Source: Bacteroidota bacterium (GTDB taxonomy: Bacteria; Bacteroidota; Ignavibacteria; Tepidaquicellales; Tepidaquicellaceae). Taken from it: a stretch of 64,000 bases of DNA. The translations under genes and the position numbers were made by a program. Below are positions 49,872-59,302 of this stretch, one piece after another. The stretch lies in contig JAFDZR010000003.1 of assembly GCA_018266875.1 (NCBI GenBank), positions 1 through 64,000 of the forward strand, in the 5' to 3' direction. The notes below the pieces were generated by a model. The model was not told the DNA's origin and searched no databases. It saw only the letters and a list, made by a program, of their open reading frames with translations. Position 1 is the stretch's first letter, and each line of letters starts with the position of its first letter.

Positions 49872-50642
49872 TCAAAAATTTTTTTTACTGAAAATTTTCA
49901 TTGAGAGGATTCCGGGAATGATCATCCAGCAGATCAGAAGAATGGCTGCAGTAACCATTCCTGCAGTGCTGCCGAAATAATCCCTGAACAATGCGCCGGT
50001 AAATCCCATCAGAGCTGAGATATTGAGCTGAAGCAGTATTAGTATCCTGCTGAGATCAACCGGATTGAGCGAAGTAAAGATCAGTATGAATTTCTCAAGA
50101 GGATAATCGCTGAAAACAAAAAGTATTATAAAAATTATTCCGTCAAATATTACCGACATGAACAGCCAGATCATTACGGAAAGTCCGATTCCCTTTACTT
50201 TGTCATTGTTCATGACGGATGAAAGAAAAGCAAGCGATACAAATATAAAAGTCAGTACAACGCCAGTAATAATAAGCAGAAATACGGGGAATGTAAATCC
50301 GAAGAAAACGAGTGGGATACCTGTCCCGGCTGCAAAAGCAAGTGAAAGTGAAAATGCAATTCCAAGATATTCCGCCGTGAAGACGCTCCTTCTGTCAACC
50401 GGCTGTGTAAGAAGCAGTTCAATAAATTCACCCGAATTGTAAAAATGAATTGTCCCGAATATCAGACTGACAAGAGGTATTATAAACAGAACCAGATTAA
50501 GCATTGTCACAACGGCTTTTGAGGGATCATGTCCGATGTATATCACAGCTGAACTCAGGACAAAGAGAAATATTCCGTAGAAAATAATAAATCTGCTTCT
50601 TACCAGTTCTATGAAGATATATTTAAGAATTTTTATGCTCAT
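49872..50642 (-). CDS. nosY: NosY, permease for copper-site maturation of N2O reductase
   Basis: A 256-residue membrane protein with six helices of the ABC-2 permease type. The opening IELVRSRFIIFYGIFLF and the LLTQPVDRRSVFTAEYLG loop are typical of NosY. It forms the membrane part of the NosFY transporter, which works with NosD in CuZ assembly, probably for sulfur or copper delivery. Start overlaps the nosF end by 20 bp. Confidence 0.9.
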   Translation of the reverse strand: MSIKILKYIFIELVRSRFIIFYGIFLFVLSSAVIYIGHDPSKAVVTMLNLVLFIIPLVSLIFGTIHFYNSGEFIELLLTQPVDRRSVFTAEYLGIAFSLSLAFAAGTGIPLVFFGFTFPVFLLIITGVVLTFIFVSLAFLSSVMNNDKVKGIGLSVMIWLFMSVIFDGIIFIILFVFSDYPLEKFILIFTSLNPVDLSRILILLQLNISALMGFTGALFRDYFGSTAGMVTAAILLICWMIIPGILSMKIFSKKNF

Positions 50643-51351
50643 CTGATCCGATTTTATTCTGAATGATTTTCTTTATGGATTTACCGAGAGTTTCTCCCGA
50701 TCCGTTTATTAGATTTTTAATTCTGTCATTGAACAATATTTTTCCGTCAATAAGATATATCAGTCTGTCCGCCATCTCATTGATCTCTGAAACCAGATGG
50801 GAACAGATTACAACCAGTCTTCCTTCAGATCCTGATTTGATGATCTTGTCTTTAAGTATTTCAGTGGAGACGGGATCAAGACTTGATGTAGGTTCATCAA
50901 GTATAAGAATTTCAGGTTCGAATAAAAAAGCTATGGAAGCTGTAACTCTCTGCTTGTAACCTCCGGAAAGCTGTCCGAAATATTTATTCTCTATTTCCCC
51001 GAGTCCGAAATTTTCAAACAGCTCGTAATCATATTTACTTTTATCGCTTCTAATATCCTTTACTATTTTAAACAACTCCCGCACCTTGAGGTTTTCAGGA
51101 TAGTTGGCAATCTGAGGCATGTAGCCGATAAATTTTCTGTAATCAAACTTATTTTTTATGCTGACGCCATTGACGAAAATGTTTCCGGAATCAGGTATGA
51201 CAAGACCAAGAACTGATTTCAGCAGAGTGGATTTTCCTGATCCGTTGGGACCCATTAATCCGGCTACCTGTCCTTCGCCCAGATCAATGTCTATACTTTT
51301 AAGCACTTCGATTTTTCCGTACTTCTTTACTATTTTTTCAGTTTTTATCAT
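50623..51351 (-). CDS. nosF: NosF, ATPase of the NosFY transporter
   Basis: An ABC ATPase: Walker A LMGPNGSGKST, signature LSGGYKQRV, Walker B ILILDEPTSSLDP. I start at ATG 51351 (MIKTEKIVKKYGK), which is the normal beginning of the fold; the upstream ATG at 51387 lies further inside nosD. The start overlaps the nosD end by 14 bp, indicating tight translational coupling. Drives the NosY permease. Confidence 0.9.
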   Translation of the reverse strand: MIKTEKIVKKYGKIEVLKSIDIDLGEGQVAGLMGPNGSGKSTLLKSVLGLVIPDSGNIFVNGVSIKNKFDYRKFIGYMPQIANYPENLKVRELFKIVKDIRSDKSKYDYELFENFGLGEIENKYFGQLSGGYKQRVTASIAFLFEPEILILDEPTSSLDPVSTEILKDKIIKSGSEGRLVVICSHLVSEINEMADRLIYLIDGKILFNDRIKNLINGSGETLGKSIKKIIQNKIGSDEHKNS

Positions 51352-52591
51352 ACTGGTATTTGTGCATTCTTGGATTTTCATCCGCAAGCGTTTCCGGAAT
51401 GAAAACGGGCATTGCTTTTTCCGTTATATCTATCAGGTCGACAATAAAACTTCTCAGCAGTATAATGCTGTCAGGAATTTTTTCAAGCATCATTGAATAA
51501 AGACTTACCGGTCTGTAGGGAATATCACCTGTGCCGTCTTTGTTAAGATCATATCCGTCGTATTTATCCCAGTAGTTTTCTGAATAGAAATTTTTATTCC
51601 TTGAGCTGTTTGAAGCAATGTCAAAAGTATTTTCAGAAAAATTATTTTTACTGAGTATGTTATCCGAGCAGTTTCCCATGATCTTCAGAGCCCATCCGTT
51701 ACCGCTGAATTCATTTTCAGTGATGATGATCTTATCGCAGCTTTCCATATATATGCCCGTTGTATTTTCACTGATTAGATTTTTATAGATCCTGCTTCTT
51801 GTAATATCTTTCAGAAGCAGTCCGTAAGATGCCGCCCCCCAGTTATGATAAAAATGATTTTCGGTCATTTCAATATAATGAGAATACATAACTGCAACGC
51901 CGGCACCGTTGCTTATGAAAGTATTGTTCCTGTATGCATTGCTGTCGGAATACATAAAATGAAGTCCGTATCTCAGATTATGTTCGCTTAAATTATTTCT
52001 GATAAGCGATGAGATCACAAACTCAAGATAAATACCGTCCCGCTGACCTGAAACTCTGTTATTTTCAATAATAATGTCCCGGCATTTCCATAAATGTATA
52101 CCGTTGCCTGAAGAAGTTTCCGTGACTGCATTTCCAGTGATGGTATTCCCGGAGATAACGCATTCCCGGGAATTCGCGAGATAGATTGAGAAGAATGTAT
52201 TTAAGAGCTGATTATTCAGGACTTTACATTTTGAAGTATTTTCAATTTTTATAGCTGCCAGATCCTTTACATAACTTGCGGACATGTTCTTGATTATCAG
52301 TCCGCTTACAGAGGAGTTTTCCTTTGTCAGAATAAATCCGTTTCCCTGTGAATCTATATCAATCACGGGAAAGGATTCGCCTATAATCTCTACCGACTTT
52401 TCAGCTTTCAGATCATGCTCGCGGTAGTATCCGCTTTTAATGATTATTCTGTCGCCGTCCTGCGAAATATCCAGGGCTTCCTTTATGGTTTTAATGCCGC
52501 ATTCGCTGCAAACTGTAATTTCTTTTCCGAAAAGAAATCCGCATTTAAGAAAAAGAATAAAGACAGCTGATATGATAAAGAGATTTTTCAA
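51338..52591 (-). CDS. nosD: NosD, periplasmic beta-helix maturation factor
   Basis: A 417-residue exported protein. A signal peptide precedes about ten right-handed beta-helix (CASH/NosD) repeats, for example NTITGNAVTETSSGNGIHLWKC and NENEFSGNGWALKIMGNCSD-like units with N-x-I/F-S-x-N patterns. NosD holds partly assembled NosZ and receives material from NosFY. Its start overlaps the nosL end by 4 bp. Confidence 0.92.
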   Translation of the reverse strand: MKNLFIISAVFILFLKCGFLFGKEITVCSECGIKTIKEALDISQDGDRIIIKSGYYREHDLKAEKSVEIIGESFPVIDIDSQGNGFILTKENSSVSGLIIKNMSASYVKDLAAIKIENTSKCKVLNNQLLNTFFSIYLANSRECVISGNTITGNAVTETSSGNGIHLWKCRDIIIENNRVSGQRDGIYLEFVISSLIRNNLSEHNLRYGLHFMYSDSNAYRNNTFISNGAGVAVMYSHYIEMTENHFYHNWGAASYGLLLKDITRSRIYKNLISENTTGIYMESCDKIIITENEFSGNGWALKIMGNCSDNILSKNNFSENTFDIASNSSRNKNFYSENYWDKYDGYDLNKDGTGDIPYRPVSLYSMMLEKIPDSIILLRSFIVDLIDITEKAMPVFIPETLADENPRMHKYQYDKN

Positions 52592-53049
52592 TTTCCGGAA
52601 TGCTTGTTTTCAAAATTATTAAAAAGCGTCTCCCAGTCATAAATTTCCCCGCTGTTTTTACTTACATATTCAGCCGCTTCTGATTGCTTTCCATAAGAAG
52701 CGAGATTTCCGCTCATCGGACTTTTTACTGATTCGCTTTTCACAAAATAAGCTTTTTCGGTTTTAATGAGTTCTCCGGGATTCGAAAAATCAATTGTATA
52801 AAAATCCGCGCCTTCGGATTTGTCGGGATCTGAACCGTTTTCTTTCTCATAATCCAGCATGCATTCGATCGAATCAAATTTATATGTCTTTCCTTTTTTC
52901 GTGATTATCTCTGCTCCGAATTTCCTGTCCATTATAGTCATCTTACAGTGTTCACAGATGTCTTTACCGAAATTTATCGGAACGATCTCTCTGCTGCAGG
53001 AAAAGAAAATAAAACAGATAAAGGGAATTGTGCATAGTAATTTTTTCAT
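52588..53049 (-). CDS. nosL: NosL, copper-delivery lipoprotein
   Basis: From ATG 53049, one base after the upstream stop, the signal peptide reads MKKLLCTIPFICFIFFSC, ending in a lipobox. The copper site of NosL is in GKDICEHCKMTIMDRKFGAE (Cys-x2-Cys, Met). NosL passes Cu(I) to NosD/NosZ for CuZ assembly. The frame is open to ATG 53091, but that adds a polar leader inside the upstream gene. Confidence 0.92.
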   Translation of the reverse strand: MKKLLCTIPFICFIFFSCSREIVPINFGKDICEHCKMTIMDRKFGAEIITKKGKTYKFDSIECMLDYEKENGSDPDKSEGADFYTIDFSNPGELIKTEKAYFVKSESVKSPMSGNLASYGKQSEAAEYVSKNSGEIYDWETLFNNFENKHSGN

Positions 53050-53050
53050 T

Positions 53051-53632
53051 TCAGATTTTCCCTCCGGTTTTTTCCCTGGTTTTTCTTTCATAAAAGAAAA
53101 CCAAAATAAATACTATTCCAGTAATAAAAAATATATAACCTCCTGTGTCCGGAAGCGAAGTGGCAGTAAAATTTAAAAGATTCTTCGAACCTATAAGCGG
53201 AGGCTGATAATTCATTCCTGTGATCTTTATTGCTGCTGTAGGATCAAGGTTGTGTCCGTAATCGTATTCCCACATATAAAAATCGGTCATACCTGCTATT
53301 CCTGCAATTACAAACAACACTATCCATGCCAGCACTAATTTTCTTTTGTTCAGAATACTTACCAGCAAGCCCGCTGCAATAAAAAACGCAATGACCAACG
53401 GCATTACTGAAAGTTCCTTTATTGATTCAGGATGAATAGTTTTCATTCCAATATAATGATTAAGTCCGTTTATTATATTCAGATCCCCGCTCATTTTGTT
53501 TATCCATATTTTCATTCCAAGTCCTTCGGGATACTGCGGAGCCTGCAGAGATATGCTCCAGATAGGCACGAAATATAATACTATAAGCAGTAAGGAAAAA
53601 AATGCGATCAGTATTCTGCTTGATTTTTTCAT
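53051..53632 (-). CDS. NosB-like membrane protein of the clade II nos cluster
   Basis: A 193-residue protein with four membrane helices (about 8-26, 75-94, 101-119, 164-182) and a conserved-looking periplasmic part (SISLQAPQYPEGLGMKIWINKMSGD and DFYMWEYDYGHNLDPTAAIKI). A membrane protein of this size and topology lies after nosZ in clade II clusters and is often called NosB; its role is unknown but linked to this type of NosZ. The identification rests on position and layout. A terminator-like hairpin separates it from nosZ. Confidence 0.72.
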   Translation of the reverse strand: MKKSSRILIAFFSLLLIVLYFVPIWSISLQAPQYPEGLGMKIWINKMSGDLNIINGLNHYIGMKTIHPESIKELSVMPLVIAFFIAAGLLVSILNKRKLVLAWIVLFVIAGIAGMTDFYMWEYDYGHNLDPTAAIKITGMNYQPPLIGSKNLLNFTATSLPDTGGYIFFITGIVFILVFFYERKTREKTGGKI

Positions 53633-53640
53633 AATTCAAA

Positions 53641-53668
53641 TTAAAAAGGGTGCTGATGAGCACCCTTT
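53641..53668 (-). terminator. Hairpin with T-rich tail between nosZ and downstream nos genes
   Basis: AAAGGGTGCT (53645-53654) pairs perfectly with AGCACCCTTT (53659-53668) around GATG. On the minus strand TTTTTAATTT follows. It lies 16 nt after the nosZ stop and 9 nt before the NosB-like start, so it is probably a partial terminator or processing site lowering expression of the accessory genes relative to nosZ. Confidence 0.75.
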
Positions 53669-53683
53669 GATTATAGATAAAAG

Positions 53684-55663
53684 TTATTTTTTCTCGTTTC
53701 CGAGAGAGTATTTCAGCGGCACATTTGCATCCTTCGGAGATACTCTTACATATCCCTGCATTTCCTGATGCAATGCAGAACAGAAGTCCGTACAGTAGAT
53801 CGGGAATATTCCCGCTCTCGTCGGCACCCATTTAAGTGAACACGTTTCACCCGGCATTACAAGCATTTCGGAATTATTATTTCCCATTACTGCAAAGCCG
53901 TGTGGAATATCCCAGTCCTGTTCAAGATTTGTCATGTGAAAATAAACCGTATCTCCCAGATTTACGCCTTCAAAATTATCAGGAGTAAAATGCGATCTTG
54001 TAGCTGCGAAATATATATGAACTACATTTCCGATTTTCTCAGCTCTCGCATCGTTAATGCTCTTAACTGCGTAAGGATTTTTATTGTCCTCGATCCTGTA
54101 GATCTTGAGCTGATTTTTTGTCACGAGATCCGCCGGAATTCCCTGCGCATAGTGAGGTTCGCCGATCGTCGGGAAGTCAAGAAGTATTCTCATTTTGTCT
54201 CCGGAAATATCTATGAGCTGCGCAGACTGTGTAAGTTCCGGTCCGGTCGGCAGATATCTGTCCTTTGTCATTTTATTAAGCGCTATCAGATATTTTCCCC
54301 ATGGTTTCTTGCTGTCGCCACCGGGAATGCTAAGATGTCCGATTGAATAATAAACCGGAATTCTGTCAACGACTTCTTTTGTATCCAGACTCCACTTTAC
54401 GACTTCAGAGGAAATAAATGCTGAAGTATAAGCAAAACCTTTCCCGTCAAATTCTGTATGAAGCGGACCGAGTCCGGGATTCTTCACTTCGCCGGAGAGA
54501 CATGCGTCATATTTCAGGATCGGGATTCCTTCTGCATCTCCGTCAAATAGTTTTTCATCTATAGCTTTTTTTATCTTTGAAAATGCGAAAACAGGAATCA
54601 CTGTTGAGAGTTTGCCGCCTGCGGTTATGTATTCTCCTGTCGGATCAACATCCGTTCCGTGCGGTGATTTCGGACATGGGATGTAATACAAAGCTCCCTT
54701 TACGTCATCAGGCAGAATTGTTTTGGTTGAATTCATCATTGTAGAAGTTGCAGAGTGTGTTTCATCATTCCATACGTTATGAACGTATTTTGTATCCATT
54801 TCCTTTCCGATCCCCGACTTCAGCATATCTTCAATCATTCTGTAATTTACAGCAAGTATGTAATCCTTGTCTTTCTGACTGGCATTTACTTCAAGCAGAG
54901 AATTGGCTTCTTCAGAATTATAGCATGAGAAGAAAAACCATCCGTCTGAAGGTCCTTTGCCTGAATGACTCAGATCATAATCATAAGGCGGAGTAAGCAG
55001 CTGATATTCAATGCTCATATTTCCGGTATTCTTGTCTACCTTTATGAATGTGAGCGCGCCTTTAAACCCTTCTTTATAGGAAGTTATCGGAACATCCCTG
55101 TTCGGAACGGGAACGCTGAATCTGGTCCCGGCTACTACATAATCCGTATTCGGAGTTGTAAACGGTGAAGAGTGATTTCCCGATGAATTCGGGATCTCGA
55201 TTATCTCGACTGTTTTAAAAGTTTTCAGGTCTATCCTGGCGATCCTCGGAGTATTGTTACCGTTTATAAAAACCCATCTTCCGTCAGGCACTCCGTCAGT
55301 CTGCGAAAGTTCTGAATGGTGAGCGTCATCCCATGGAACAAAACCGTAAGAAGTATTCAGCATTGGTTTTGTCTCTTCCGTATATCCGTATCCGTTCTCG
55401 GGATTTACGGAAAATACCGGAATGACTTTAAACATTCTGCCTGAAGGAATTCCGTAGACCGACATCTGACCGCTGAATCCCCCCGATACGAAATAATAGA
55501 ATTCATCATATTTGCCGGGTTCGATATAAACTTTGGATGCCTCATCACCGCTTAGACTCAGAGTTTTGGAATTTTTTTCAGAGCATGAATAAAAACCGGC
55601 TGAGATCACTGTGATAAAAATACCCAGAAGAACTGCTTTTGATATTAATTTACTTTTCTTCAT
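53684..55663 (-). CDS. nosZ: Nitrous oxide reductase, clade II
   Basis: Reduces N2O to N2 in the periplasm. From ATG 55663 the protein has 659 residues. The seven CuZ ligands are all visible: His115/His116 (DDAHHSE), His164 (GNHSSPF), His335 (KSPHGTD), His402 (PLHTEFD), His443 (IGHLSIP) and His504 (GEPHYAQ). The CuA site at the end has His588 (DIPHGFA), Cys624 and Cys628 (CTDFCSALHQEM), His632 and Met635. The signal is Sec-type, not Tat, as in clade II. It ends GFYSC, so this NosZ may be lipid-anchored. AGAGGA precedes the start, which is chosen over ATG 55741 because the latter overlaps nosC. Confidence 0.97.
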   Translation of the reverse strand: MKKSKLISKAVLLGIFITVISAGFYSCSEKNSKTLSLSGDEASKVYIEPGKYDEFYYFVSGGFSGQMSVYGIPSGRMFKVIPVFSVNPENGYGYTEETKPMLNTSYGFVPWDDAHHSELSQTDGVPDGRWVFINGNNTPRIARIDLKTFKTVEIIEIPNSSGNHSSPFTTPNTDYVVAGTRFSVPVPNRDVPITSYKEGFKGALTFIKVDKNTGNMSIEYQLLTPPYDYDLSHSGKGPSDGWFFFSCYNSEEANSLLEVNASQKDKDYILAVNYRMIEDMLKSGIGKEMDTKYVHNVWNDETHSATSTMMNSTKTILPDDVKGALYYIPCPKSPHGTDVDPTGEYITAGGKLSTVIPVFAFSKIKKAIDEKLFDGDAEGIPILKYDACLSGEVKNPGLGPLHTEFDGKGFAYTSAFISSEVVKWSLDTKEVVDRIPVYYSIGHLSIPGGDSKKPWGKYLIALNKMTKDRYLPTGPELTQSAQLIDISGDKMRILLDFPTIGEPHYAQGIPADLVTKNQLKIYRIEDNKNPYAVKSINDARAEKIGNVVHIYFAATRSHFTPDNFEGVNLGDTVYFHMTNLEQDWDIPHGFAVMGNNNSEMLVMPGETCSLKWVPTRAGIFPIYCTDFCSALHQEMQGYVRVSPKDANVPLKYSLGNEKK

Positions 55664-55694
55664 TTCATTATCCTCTTTTATAGTTTTTAAATTT

Positions 55695-56114
55695 TTATTT
55701 ATCATTATTTCTGAAAAATTCCAGTATTGCCCTTGCATCATCCTGAGTTACATTCTGAAATGTCATTGGAGTCGGATACTGACCTGACATTGACAGAGTT
55801 TTGGCTATCATGTTTTCCTGAACCATCTGAACAGGATTAAGTATCATATTCATGATCCATTCGGGTTTTCTTCTTTTTGTCACATCTTTCAAGGCAGGAC
55901 CCACAAGTTTTTCATCTACCCTGTGGCAAGTTGCGCATTTTACTTCAAAAGTAGCCTTTCCCTTTGCGACAAGGTTCTGATCTATTACCGGATCGATCTT
56001 TACTTCCTTGACAGGTCCGATTCCCATTTCAGGATCATTGCCTCCGCATCCTCCGGAAGACATGGTTATTAAAGCTGATATAATAAAGACTGAGATGATT
56101 GTTAGTTTATACAT
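55695..56114 (-). CDS. Cytochrome c of the nos cluster
   Basis: A 139-residue monohaem cytochrome. The N-terminal signal peptide ends in SSGGC (lipobox-like). The haem motif is CATCH, with KVDEKLVGPALKDVTKR-like sequence after it and a Met (MSGQYPTPMTF) as likely second ligand. Clade II clusters carry such cytochromes as NosC1/NosC2, which probably donate electrons to NosZ. Only one is present here. It lies 31 bp upstream of nosZ and 16 bp after ric. Confidence 0.9.
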   Translation of the reverse strand: MYKLTIISVFIISALITMSSGGCGGNDPEMGIGPVKEVKIDPVIDQNLVAKGKATFEVKCATCHRVDEKLVGPALKDVTKRRKPEWIMNMILNPVQMVQENMIAKTLSMSGQYPTPMTFQNVTQDDARAILEFFRNNDK

Positions 56115-56130: not shown

Positions 56131-56871
56131 TTATAAATGATTAGTTTGATAATATTTTTTTAATAATTTTTTTTCCGCTTTCACTGCTTTTGGAAAAAGA
56201 AGATTGTTTTCAAAATGAAAATGAAGATGCAGGTCAATCTCAAATTCCTTAAACAATTCATAAAATTCTTTTTTTAAAGGATCTTTAATCCCTTTTATAT
56301 TAAAGCCTGAACATTCTGATTTGATTTCCCCGAAATTTTCAATTGCAATTTCATGTTCCCTGACCATCATTTTTACCGGATCAGATATATTCCCAAAAGG
56401 AGGGATCTCGTATTCTGAATTCCCGGTTTCGTGTTTGCGGATCTTTTTAATGTGCGGAAATAAAAATTTCTCTTCCTTATTCATATGTTCGCTGAAATCC
56501 GATTCCATTAATTCAAGCTTGCCTGTAATCCCCTCAATGACAGACCCTTTATTTTCAAGATTTCTGCTGAGTTTAATAAGTGAAGGAAAACTCTTTCTGA
56601 TGAAACCGTGATGACTTTTTACGATATAATCACACAGAAAATCTATATCCCATTCATGCATTCTGAAATGTCCGGTTATGCCGGAAGAAAGATTGCTGAA
56701 TTCATTGATCACTTTTTCGGGTTTTAAACTGAATTCGCTGCATGCGCTTCCGAGAGTTGAATTTCCTTTCAGGCAGTAATTCAGTTCATATTTTTCAAAA
56801 AGTTCTACTGCCAGGAAATTACTGTTTATAATATCGGTGAGCTTTGTGTCAATCATTTTTTTCATTGCCAT
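56131..56871 (-). CDS. ric: RIC-type di-iron iron-sulfur cluster repair protein
   Basis: A 246-residue protein of the ScdA/YtfE/DnrN family, which repairs Fe-S clusters damaged by nitric oxide or oxidants. The N-terminal DUF542 domain reads ELNYCLKGNSTLGSACSEF, where family members normally have YCCGG; the second Cys is Leu here. The C-terminal hemerythrin domain has the iron ligands His (VKSHHGFI, HMNKEEKFLFPHI, VREHEIAIENF, LHFHFENNLLFP). First gene after a Crp/Fnr-type site and promoter, with nosC 16 bp downstream. Confidence 0.9.
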   Translation of the reverse strand: MAMKKMIDTKLTDIINSNFLAVELFEKYELNYCLKGNSTLGSACSEFSLKPEKVINEFSNLSSGITGHFRMHEWDIDFLCDYIVKSHHGFIRKSFPSLIKLSRNLENKGSVIEGITGKLELMESDFSEHMNKEEKFLFPHIKKIRKHETGNSEYEIPPFGNISDPVKMMVREHEIAIENFGEIKSECSGFNIKGIKDPLKKEFYELFKEFEIDLHLHFHFENNLLFPKAVKAEKKLLKKYYQTNHL

Positions 56872-56888
56872 TATTCATCTTTCTTATA

Positions 56889-56896
56889 CAAAAATA
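56889..56896 (-). promoter_or_regulatory. Probable promoter -7 element for ric and nos genes
   Basis: On the minus strand TATTTTTG matches the Bacteroidota consensus TAnnTTTG exactly. It ends 18 nt before the ric start and is 22 bp from the Crp/Fnr box, which places the box centre near -41. Confidence 0.55.
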
Positions 56897-56917
56897 CCTA
56901 CAATGCATAATTTATCC

Positions 56918-56933
56918 TTTGACTTTAGTCAAA
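56918..56933. promoter_or_regulatory. Crp/Fnr-type operator TTTGAC-N4-GTCAAA
   Basis: A perfect 6-4-6 palindrome (TTTGACTTTAGTCAAA) centred at 56925.5, about 54 bp before the ric start. Fnr/Dnr sites have the form TTGAT-N4-ATCAA. The Crp/Fnr gene that ends at 56988 encodes a recognition helix with E-x-x-S-R, which reads TTGA/TCAA half-sites. Confidence 0.75.
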
Positions 56934-56987
56934 GGGATGATAAATACAAGAAAATAATTGAATATTGCCGAGAGAAAATGTTTGATG

Positions 56988-57686
56988 TTAAACTGATGCC
57001 GCCTGCCGGAGAGCGGATTTGCCGATGATGTGGATTTTTTTTCCTTTAACGGAAATAATTTTGTTTTCCTGAAATTTTTTAAGACATCTTGAAAGTGTTT
57101 CATCTATTGTTCCGAGATAAGCGGCAAGATCATGTTTGCTTATTCCCAGCTCAATGATCCCTTTTTCCTTTTGAGGGCTTTTTTTCAGCTCATCCAGGAG
57201 AAACCATGCAAGCCGTCTGGGAACATCCTGTGAGATGCTTTCTATGTGACTGTTAAGGTGTTTTAGTTTTCTGGAAAGTCCGGAAAGCATTTTGAGGCAG
57301 ATTGTTTTGTTTTTTTCAAGAAGGTTATAGAAATAATCTGATCTGATAAGGATAATTTTTGTCTTGTCCTCCAGCGCCATTGCATTTGCAGGGTAATAAA
57401 AATCCTCTGATCTGATCTTTTCAAACTGATCAAAGAGCGGAGCTTCAGCGAAAGTGTTAAAAGGATGAACAAAAAGAAGTACGTGTTCCCTGCCGTCTTT
57501 TGAGATCTTGAAGATCTTTACGTTTCCTTCGGCGACAATATAAAATCCTATATAAGGTTCTGTATCAAAGAAAATCATTTCACCTTTGTCATAGGTTTTT
57601 ACATTTGAATGAGAATAAATTTTATTCAGCTCTTCTTCATTCAGTCCGGAAAAGAGATTTACATTCTTTAATATGCTGCTATCCAT
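56988..57686 (-). CDS. Crp/Fnr-family regulator, probably Dnr-like
   Basis: A 232-residue protein: a cyclic-nucleotide-binding-like domain (residues 1-140, with FYIVAEGNVKIFKISKDGREHVL), a dimerisation helix, and an HTH (GISKHDLAAYLGTIDETLSRCLKKFQ). The recognition helix DETLSR has the Glu/Ser/Arg set for TTGA half-sites. There is no N-terminal Cys cluster, so it is not an oxygen-sensing Fe-S FNR; a nitric oxide-sensing Dnr-type role is likely. It overlaps SemiSWEET by 8 bp, and its stop lies 55 nt from the operator for ric. Confidence 0.9.
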   Translation of the reverse strand: MDSSILKNVNLFSGLNEEELNKIYSHSNVKTYDKGEMIFFDTEPYIGFYIVAEGNVKIFKISKDGREHVLLFVHPFNTFAEAPLFDQFEKIRSEDFYYPANAMALEDKTKIILIRSDYFYNLLEKNKTICLKMLSGLSRKLKHLNSHIESISQDVPRRLAWFLLDELKKSPQKEKGIIELGISKHDLAAYLGTIDETLSRCLKKFQENKIISVKGKKIHIIGKSALRQAASV

Positions 57687-57933
57687 ATTTAATTTTCATT
57701 ATCAGAGTTGCTGTTACAAAAAAAAAGGATACAGAGTTGGCTGCAAGCAGCGGTATGTCAGATATCATTATGCCGTAAATGATCCATACGATCACTCCGA
57801 ATTCAAGCATTATTAGCATCGGCAGAGAGAGATCCTTTGTGTGTTTTGTCTTTAAAGCTCTTATGGACTGCGGCAAGAATGCAAAAGTTGTGAGACTTGC
57901 GGCTATCAGCCCTGTGATCAGTACCGGATCCAA
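57679..57933 (-). CDS. SemiSWEET sugar transporter
   Basis: An 84-residue protein of three helices with the PQ-loop motif FAFLPQSIRALKTK and the second pair LEFGVIVWIIYG. SemiSWEETs work as dimers to move small sugars such as sucrose down their gradient. Its stop overlaps the regulator start by 8 bp and its start is 1 bp past the glyS stop. Confidence 0.9.
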   Translation of the reverse strand: MDPVLITGLIAASLTTFAFLPQSIRALKTKHTKDLSLPMLIMLEFGVIVWIIYGIMISDIPLLAANSVSFFFVTATLIMKIKYG

Positions 57934-57934
57934 A

Positions 57935-59302
57935 TCAGTCTGTTTTAGATTTAAGATATTCCTTTAATCTGTCTTTCTGGATTCTTTCCTGCTCCATGGA
58001 ATCCCTGTGTCTTACCGTAACGGAATTATCAGTCAGCGTTTCAGAATCAACTGTTATGCAGAACGGAGTCCCGCATTCATCCTGTCTTCTGTATCTTCTT
58101 CCGACAGCGCCGGAATCATCATAAAATACATTAAAGGTTTTTCTCAGATCATCAGTGATACTGTGAGCGATATCCTGCATTCCGTCCCTGTTGACAAGCG
58201 GAAAAATTCCGGCTTTTACCGGAGCCAGCGAAGGATGGAATCTCAATACAGTTCTCGTCTCGGAGGAAACGCTGCCGTCAGAATTTTCCTTTTTGATTTC
58301 CTCTTCATCATAAGCATTACAGAGGAATGCAAAGAAACTTCTTGATGCGCCTGCGGAAGTTTCTATTACAAACGGCGTGAATCTTTCTTTTGTCTGATCA
58401 TCGAAATATTCTATTTTCTTTCCTGAGAATTCAGTATGCCTTTTCAGATCAAAATCAGTTCGGTTGTGAATTCCTTCTATCTCTCCCCATCCGAACGGAA
58501 ATTCAAACTCAATATCAACGGCGGCTTTGGCATAGTGGGCAAGTTTCTCATGTTCATGAAATTTTATCTTATCCTTATCCATTCCGTAATTAATGAACCA
58601 GTTGTATCTCTGCTCTTTCCAGTAATCAAACCATTTTGAATCCTCTTCCGGATTGACGAAGAACTGCATTTCCATCTGCTCGAATTCCCTAGTCCTGAAA
58701 AGAAAGTTCTTTGTGTTGATCTCATTCCTGAATGCCTTTCCTATCTGAGCAATTCCGAACGGTATCTTCTGCCTCGATGATTCTCTTACGTTATTAAAAT
58801 TCACATAAATTCCCTGCGCCGTTTCCGGTCTTAAATATACGGCGCTTGATGACTCTTCAAGCGGACCTATGTGAGTCTTGAACATCAGATTAAAATTTCT
58901 CGCTTCTGTGAATTTACCTTCCTCAAAGCATTTAACTGCTTTTCTACCCTTGAATCCCTTATTGCCGCAGTCTGATTCATCGAGCTGATCGGCTCTGAAT
59001 CTGCCTTTGCATTCTTTACAATCCACCATCGGATCGGAAAAATGTTCGACATGACCTGAAGCCTCCCATACCCGGGGATGCATAAGTATTGAAGAATCTA
59101 TTCCCTCAACATTTTCACGGTAAGTCATCTCTCTCCACCATGATTCTTTTATATTTCTTAAAAGTTCAACTCCCAATGGACCGTAATCATAGCATCCGTT
59201 CAGGCCGCCGTAGATCTCCGAAGACTGAAATATAAATCCCCTTCTCTTTGAAAGTGAAACAATCTTTTCCGTTGTATCTGATTTTGTGTTTTTATTGCTC
59301 AA
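57935..59302 (-). CDS. glyS: Glycine--tRNA ligase, single-chain type
   Basis: Charges tRNA-Gly. A 455-residue class II synthetase of the alpha2 (eukaryote/archaeal-like) form: SKRRGFIFQSSEIYGGLNGCYDYGPLG at the start, motif 2 RNEINTKNFLFRTREFEQMEMQFF, and motif 3 near SAGASRSFFAF. The catalytic domain is complete, with a C-terminal anticodon-binding domain. The downstream SemiSWEET and Crp genes follow with almost no gap. Confidence 0.95.
   Translation of the reverse strand: MSNKNTKSDTTEKIVSLSKRRGFIFQSSEIYGGLNGCYDYGPLGVELLRNIKESWWREMTYRENVEGIDSSILMHPRVWEASGHVEHFSDPMVDCKECKGRFRADQLDESDCGNKGFKGRKAVKCFEEGKFTEARNFNLMFKTHIGPLEESSSAVYLRPETAQGIYVNFNNVRESSRQKIPFGIAQIGKAFRNEINTKNFLFRTREFEQMEMQFFVNPEEDSKWFDYWKEQRYNWFINYGMDKDKIKFHEHEKLAHYAKAAVDIEFEFPFGWGEIEGIHNRTDFDLKRHTEFSGKKIEYFDDQTKERFTPFVIETSAGASRSFFAFLCNAYDEEEIKKENSDGSVSSETRTVLRFHPSLAPVKAGIFPLVNRDGMQDIAHSITDDLRKTFNVFYDDSGAVGRRYRRQDECGTPFCITVDSETLTDNSVTVRHRDSMEQERIQKDRLKEYLKSKTD

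Follow-up and report, generated by a model that had tools for sequence, protein, structure and literature searches.

Introduction

How is the synthesis of a clade II nitrous oxide reductase controlled in a bacterium of the class Ignavibacteria, and does the gene of a Crp/Fnr-type regulator located next to its nos operon take part in this control? The question is raised by a 64-kb stretch of DNA, the whole of which is called the window in the following, where such a gene (crp) directly precedes ric and the nos genes. The products of the ric-nos operon destroy the greenhouse gas N2O. Non-denitrifying clade II N2O reducers are important sinks of this gas, and many of them also carry nrfA (PMC11879220), which is part of the nitrite-to-ammonia enzyme encoded by nrfHA. 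The switch between N2O reduction and ammonification in such organisms is little known, and a survey of a wastewater community found no evidence of Crp/Fnr control of denitrification in metagenome-assembled genomes of Ignavibacteria and Bacteroidetes (PMC8510549). A first-pass annotation of the locus had proposed a local Crp/Fnr switch for ric-nos, a proposal that we have followed up in the window, in the remainder of the genome and in its relatives.

Results

Box and predicted promoter element upstream of ric-nos

The features of the locus are listed in Table 1. The operator box TTTGACTTTAGTCAAA starts 54 bp past the crp stop codon in the 116-bp gap between crp and ric. It is the sole perfect TTTGAC-N4-GTCAAA in the window, which confirms the site described in the first-pass annotation as lying just past the Crp/Fnr gene. 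The number of perfect boxes expected from base composition is 1e-5 in the gap, 0.007 in the window and 0.4 in the genome of 3.5 Mb. No further boxes were found in the 64-kb window and autoregulation was thus not seen. A general scan for sigma70-type promoters gave no excess over shuffled sequences.

The primary sigma factor of Flavobacterium psychrophilum recognizes TAnnTTTG, which was mapped at positions -12 to -5 (PMC9723704). If this placement is applied to the element TATTTTTG, the predicted start of transcription falls on the position given in Table 1 and the box centre (56925.5) at -41.5, in agreement with the earlier claim of a centre near -41. Owing to the 22-nt spacing and the mapped placement in F. 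psychrophilum, the operator thus resides, with respect to this predicted start, where it is found in class II Crp/Fnr-dependent promoters, whose operators are centred near -41.5. In an alignment of ric-nos promoters, nearly all information is contained in the box and the -7 region.

Table 1. Features of the crp and ric-nos locus (positions refer to the window)
Feature	Position	Strand	Basis and remarks
Operator, TTTGAC-TTTA-GTCAAA, Crp/Fnr-type	56918..56933	.	Predicted centre at -41.5
-7 element (TAnnTTTG) of predicted ric-nos promoter	56889..56896	-	22 nt past the 14-bp palindrome
Predicted ric-nos transcription start	56884..56884	-	Inferred from geometry only
crp, Crp/Fnr regulator resembling DNR (232 aa; DETLSR as recognition helix)	56988..57686	-	Pfam cNMP_binding, HTH_Crp_2; best PDB match DNR
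SemiSWEET transporter gene	57679..57933	-	NF037968 over cut-off; overlaps crp start by 8 bp
glyS, assigned here as glycyl-tRNA synthetase	57935..59302	-	ORF; synteny with crp
ric, first operon gene, di-iron protein of the YtfE/ScdA/RIC type for Fe-S cluster repair	56131..56871	-	Hemerythrin and ScdA_N Pfam domains
c-type cytochrome	55695..56114	-	PF00034; synteny
nosZ, Sec-dependent (clade II) N2O reductase	53684..55741	-	TIGR04246, 923 bits, over cut-off
nos-operon protein without family match	53051..53632	-	No NCBIfam/Pfam match; syntenic in relatives
nosL	52588..53091	-	PF05573
nosD	51338..52591	-	TIGR04247, 398 bits, over cut-off
nosF, ABC ATPase	50623..51387	-	PF00005; synteny
nosY, ABC permease	49872..50642	-	Weak PF12679 match below cut-off; synteny

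Within the operon, ric scores 116 bits against TIGR03652, which is below the cut-off, and the in-frame start codons indicate that nosZ probably begins at 55663 rather than at 55741. The protein of unassigned family encoded after nosZ is 55-70% identical in close relatives. A strong hairpin is located between nosZ and this gene (53645-53668, minus strand), and hairpins of differing sequence are found at the same place in four loci of relatives. The retained position suggests a conserved 3' stabiliser or an attenuator after nosZ, and the downstream nos genes may in this way be uncoupled from the ric-nos promoter.

Conservation and co-occurrence in relatives

A search of 59 relatives with the Crp protein recovered about 30 orthologues, which belong to two families of the order. 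In most orthologue loci with ric nearby, a perfect TTGAC-N4-GTCAA is found between crp and ric, mostly in the form TTGACTTAAGTCAA, for which a search of the literature returned no match. The box remains about 60-110 bp upstream of ric even if crp is 0.5-1.8 kb away, and in four genomes where nos is unlinked from crp it is located before ric-nos and not after crp. The spacing between box and -7 element was determined in loci that were fetched by Crp or by the box, with those fetched by the composite pattern left out as circular. Among 24 sites in Crp-fetched loci, TAnnTTTG follows exactly 22 nt past the palindrome in 19 (23 if TAnnTTTA is counted) and at none of 36 other offsets, and in loci fetched by the box only, it is found at 22 nt in 13 cases and elsewhere in 3. 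The conservation of the box between crp and ric in relatives and its exact spacing to TAnnTTTG exclude a chance origin, which means that the conserved switch ahead of the N2O-reductase genes is real.

Among 294 genomes drawn from the class, 27 contain the composite promoter consisting of box and -7 element, at 42 places altogether, and 25 of these 27 genomes belong to the two families. The reversed pattern is present at 3 places. Its occurrence parallels that of the regulator: among 44 genomes of the two families, it is found in 25 of 33 with Crp but in only one of 11 without (Fisher p 1.5e-4, with the relatedness of genomes ignored), the lone exception being a genome that is 75% complete. Five of the eight Crp-bearing genomes without a strict composite promoter contain TAnnTTTA variants at 22-23 nt. 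NosZ-bearing genomes without Crp (five loci) have no box in their nos region, from which in two of these genomes (G012, G026) ric is also absent, and a genome of the same genus (G001) contains neither Crp nor NosZ nor box.

Properties of the regulator

The regulator belongs to the Crp/Fnr superfamily, as evident from matches to PF00027 and PF13545 over cut-off and from an AlphaFold model (pLDDT 90.5) that matches Crp/Fnr folds. None of the Crp/Fnr equivalogs in NCBIfam scores over its curated cut-off, the best being FtrB with 70.5 of 211. The protein contains two cysteines, C201, which is unique to it, and C130, which is shared by 20 of 30 orthologues, and it thus lacks the four that hold the 4Fe-4S cluster in FNR, as had been stated initially. 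It also differs from CRP, which carries an Arg at the first specificity position (R180) and binds TGTGA half-sites: this position is Asp in the regulator and Arg in none of the listed orthologues, and the conserved half-site is TTGAC. The ETLSR part of the recognition helix is nearly invariant in orthologues, with residue 196 always Glu and residue 195 never Arg. A helix of the form xETLSR fits the published specificity rule for TTGA half-sites (PMC1274295), which bears out the initial reading of DETLSR.

Among sequences in the PDB, the best match is DNR of Pseudomonas aeruginosa, with 72.7 bits by single sequence and, in a profile search, 152 bits versus 106 for the next entry, which makes it the nearest among solved structures only. 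DNR also ranks first by TM-score (0.61) among the matches listed in a fold search. The heme ligand of DNR, which we take to be His187, is replaced by Tyr190 in the regulator, with a His found at the equivalent position in 7 of 30 orthologues. The conserved residues His143, His147, Met103 and Met133 are candidate heme ligands.

Many relatives within the family retain the gene order glyS-SemiSWEET-crp. Probably, crp is transcribed together with the SemiSWEET gene and expressed from the housekeeping context of glyS, and control would therefore be expected to originate from a ligand and not from the synthesis of the regulator.

Further putative targets and host metabolism

In the genome that contains the window, the pattern TTGA-N6-TCAA-N22-TAnnTTTG occurs at exactly three places, compared to 0.06 expected from the frequency of TAnnTTTG in the window, and its reversed version at none. 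The three places precede ric-nos, nrfHA and a porin-like ORF. The nrfHA promoter TTGACAAAGATCAA (C35:18499-18542) contains one mismatch, and NrfA scores over cut-off. The description of the switch as local is thus supported with respect to the adjacent regulator but too narrow otherwise, since nrfHA has the same promoter elsewhere in the genome and nos is unlinked from crp in some relatives. In relatives, boxes are repeatedly found before nrfHA, and also before a NirK-like gene cluster, a ferredoxin-type gene in an nrfA cluster, and genes of fasciclin and cupin proteins.

Several other genes were noticed behind these sequences. The third composite promoter of the genome (C17:79936-79979) is located 81 bp before the porin-like ORF, whose match to PF07396 is just below cut-off. 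Lipoproteins with a fasciclin domain, or similar to such proteins, are repeatedly encoded downstream of boxes, at seven loci in all. At four loci in several genomes, composite promoters precede genes of small proteins (about 110 residues), of which Pfam assigns one to the cupins. At seven further loci, a box of the TTGAT/TTGAC type, again separated from the -7 element by 22 nt, precedes the gene of a membrane protein of about 365 residues. This protein contains invariant His40, His263 and His277 and has no sequence match in Pfam, NCBIfam or the PDB. Its model (pLDDT 75) shows weak likeness to cbb3 oxidase and qNOR (TM 0.65 and 0.44), and it may thus be heme-copper-like or NnrS-like.

The genome, which is 94.6% complete, contains no match to NirK or NirS (TIGR02376, PF02239), and no NO reductase was detected, its two COX1-family proteins being oxidases of the cbb3 and aa3 type. 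Together with the presence of NosZ and NrfA, these results suggest an organism that reduces N2O and ammonifies nitrite but does not denitrify. The nir and nor genes, near which the first-pass annotation had advised to search for additional TTGAC-N4-GTCAA sites, were hence rejected as targets in this organism. The genome does hold a second such site (C7:114159), which was equally discarded as a target: it is located within an ORF of 239 residues and lacks a TAnnTTTG at the required spacing, and its presence is thus probably due to chance.

Discussion

From the comparison of sequences, we consider it very probable that the product of crp is a class II activator of ric-nos that also acts on nrfHA in trans, with NO or another nitrogen oxide as likeliest ligand. 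In the proposed mechanism, a dimer of the regulator would bind to TTTGAC-N4-GTCAAA centred at -41.5 and recruit RNA polymerase carrying a Bacteroidetes-type primary sigma factor to TAnnTTTG, and ric, the cytochrome c gene, nosZ and its assembly genes would be made together. Acting in trans, the same protein would switch on nrfHA, and its likeliest ligand would be NO or another nitrogen oxide, bound via a heme. The conservation of the promoter, the movement of the box with its target genes and its co-occurrence with the adjacent Crp and not with a paralogue all support the class II geometry, the ric-nos target and the neighbouring regulator that had been proposed at the outset. The alternatives considered below are less supported than this mechanism.

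The strongest of them accepts the activation of ric-nos and nrfHA and replaces NO by a different signal, such as N2O, nitrite/nitrate or the redox state, and although we do not favour it, we regard it as a serious contender. It is in line with Tyr190 occupying the place of His187 in DNR and with the fact that an NO-forming nitrite reductase of denitrification was not detected in the genome. Nitrate, NO and N2O reportedly act as signals for separate Nss regulators of the same enzymes in Wolinella (PMC6682613). In favour of NO, DNR as the nearest relative of solved structure is itself an NO sensor, ric as the first target gene belongs to a type associated with the repair of NO damage, and the conserved His and Met residues listed above could act as heme ligands. 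We thus leave NO sensing via a DNR-like pocket at plausible, since the heme ligand of DNR is not conserved. The initial assignment as NO-responsive protein of the Dnr type is plausible in view of the relation to DNR and the absence of an Fe-S cysteine set. It is rather unlikely, though deserving mention, that a single regulator related to DNR but with a different ligand pocket couples N2O respiration (ric-nos) to the ammonification of nitrite (nrfHA) in a non-denitrifier in response to a signal not acting via the DNR heme ligand; if true, the order would contain a regulator subfamily of its own.

It appears improbable that the site serves repression, either exclusively or in combination with activation. 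Such a role has a precedent in Nitrosophilus labii, where a negative effect of a Crp/Fnr protein on nosZ was inferred from expression correlations (PMC11539149), but -41.5 is the classical position of class II activators with its helical phase strictly kept, and the promoter alignment contains no evident -33 element, as suits a promoter that depends on an activator. We consider it very improbable that the box is a genuine operator of the same geometry bound by the other Crp/Fnr protein of the genome (C6:22659-23300). The helix of this paralogue (TETAIR), with Glu at the second and no Arg at the first specificity position, could read TTGA by the published rule, but three genomes that contain only paralogues of its kind (G001, G003, G012) have no composite promoters, and the boxes follow the nos-adjacent Crp that is syntenic with ric-nos. 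Finally, although the palindrome is located beyond the crp stop codon and can fold into a stem, its interpretation as intrinsic terminator hairpin of the crp or glyS-SemiSWEET-crp transcript was rejected as close to negligible in probability, since it has no T-run, is absent from the output of a terminator scan, is just slightly more stable as a fold than shuffled sequences (z -1.65) and tracks ric instead of crp, with occurrences also at nrfHA and unlinked nos and a fixed distance of 22 nt to TAnnTTTG.

The proposed activation of ric-nos and nrfHA by a Crp/Fnr protein has relatives in known systems. Control of denitrification and nrf genes by regulators of the DNR, NnrR and Nss type, the predicted TTGAC-N4-GTCAA site of HcpR and the class II placement are already known, to which our study adds a well-supported case, built on sequence comparison, of a TAnnTTTG promoter joining clade II nos with nrfHA. 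NO and heme activate DNR of P. aeruginosa, which exerts direct control over nir, nor and nos (PMC12403760). The regulator shares its Crp/Fnr fold without Fe-S cluster, but is only about 26% identical, recognizes half-sites that are mostly TTGAC, and has clade II nos and nrfHA as predicted targets in a genome where nir and nor were not detected. For HcpR of delta-proteobacteria, Rodionov et al. (2005) predicted the site wyTTGACnnnnGTCAArw and a regulon that in Geobacter and Desulfuromonas includes nrfHA (PMC1274295). The same site TTGACnnnnGTCAA is found here in combination with a residue other than Arg at the first specificity position and Glu at the second, and the Ser/Pro-Glu pair of HcpR is shared by many of the orthologues. 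In contrast, hcp and frdX, the targets that define HcpR, did not appear at the inspected sites, with hcp not among the downstream genes classified at boxes, and the structure of HcpR from P. gingivalis scores well below DNR against the model of the regulator. In Wolinella succinogenes, the Crp/Fnr proteins NssA, NssB and NssC were reported to increase the reductases of nitrate, nitrite and N2O (PMC6682613), and sites of the Nss type in Nitrosophilus (TTGA-N6-TCAA) are located about 48 bp before predicted starts (PMC11539149). This system resembles the one proposed here in the joint control of clade II nos and nrf but employs three regulators instead of one in an unrelated phylum. Its promoters are of the sigma70 type and are not known to contain TAnnTTTG.

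Collectively, a single regulator, its operator and a fixed promoter geometry predict that the genes for the reduction of N2O and for the conversion of nitrite to ammonia would be controlled jointly across two families of one order.
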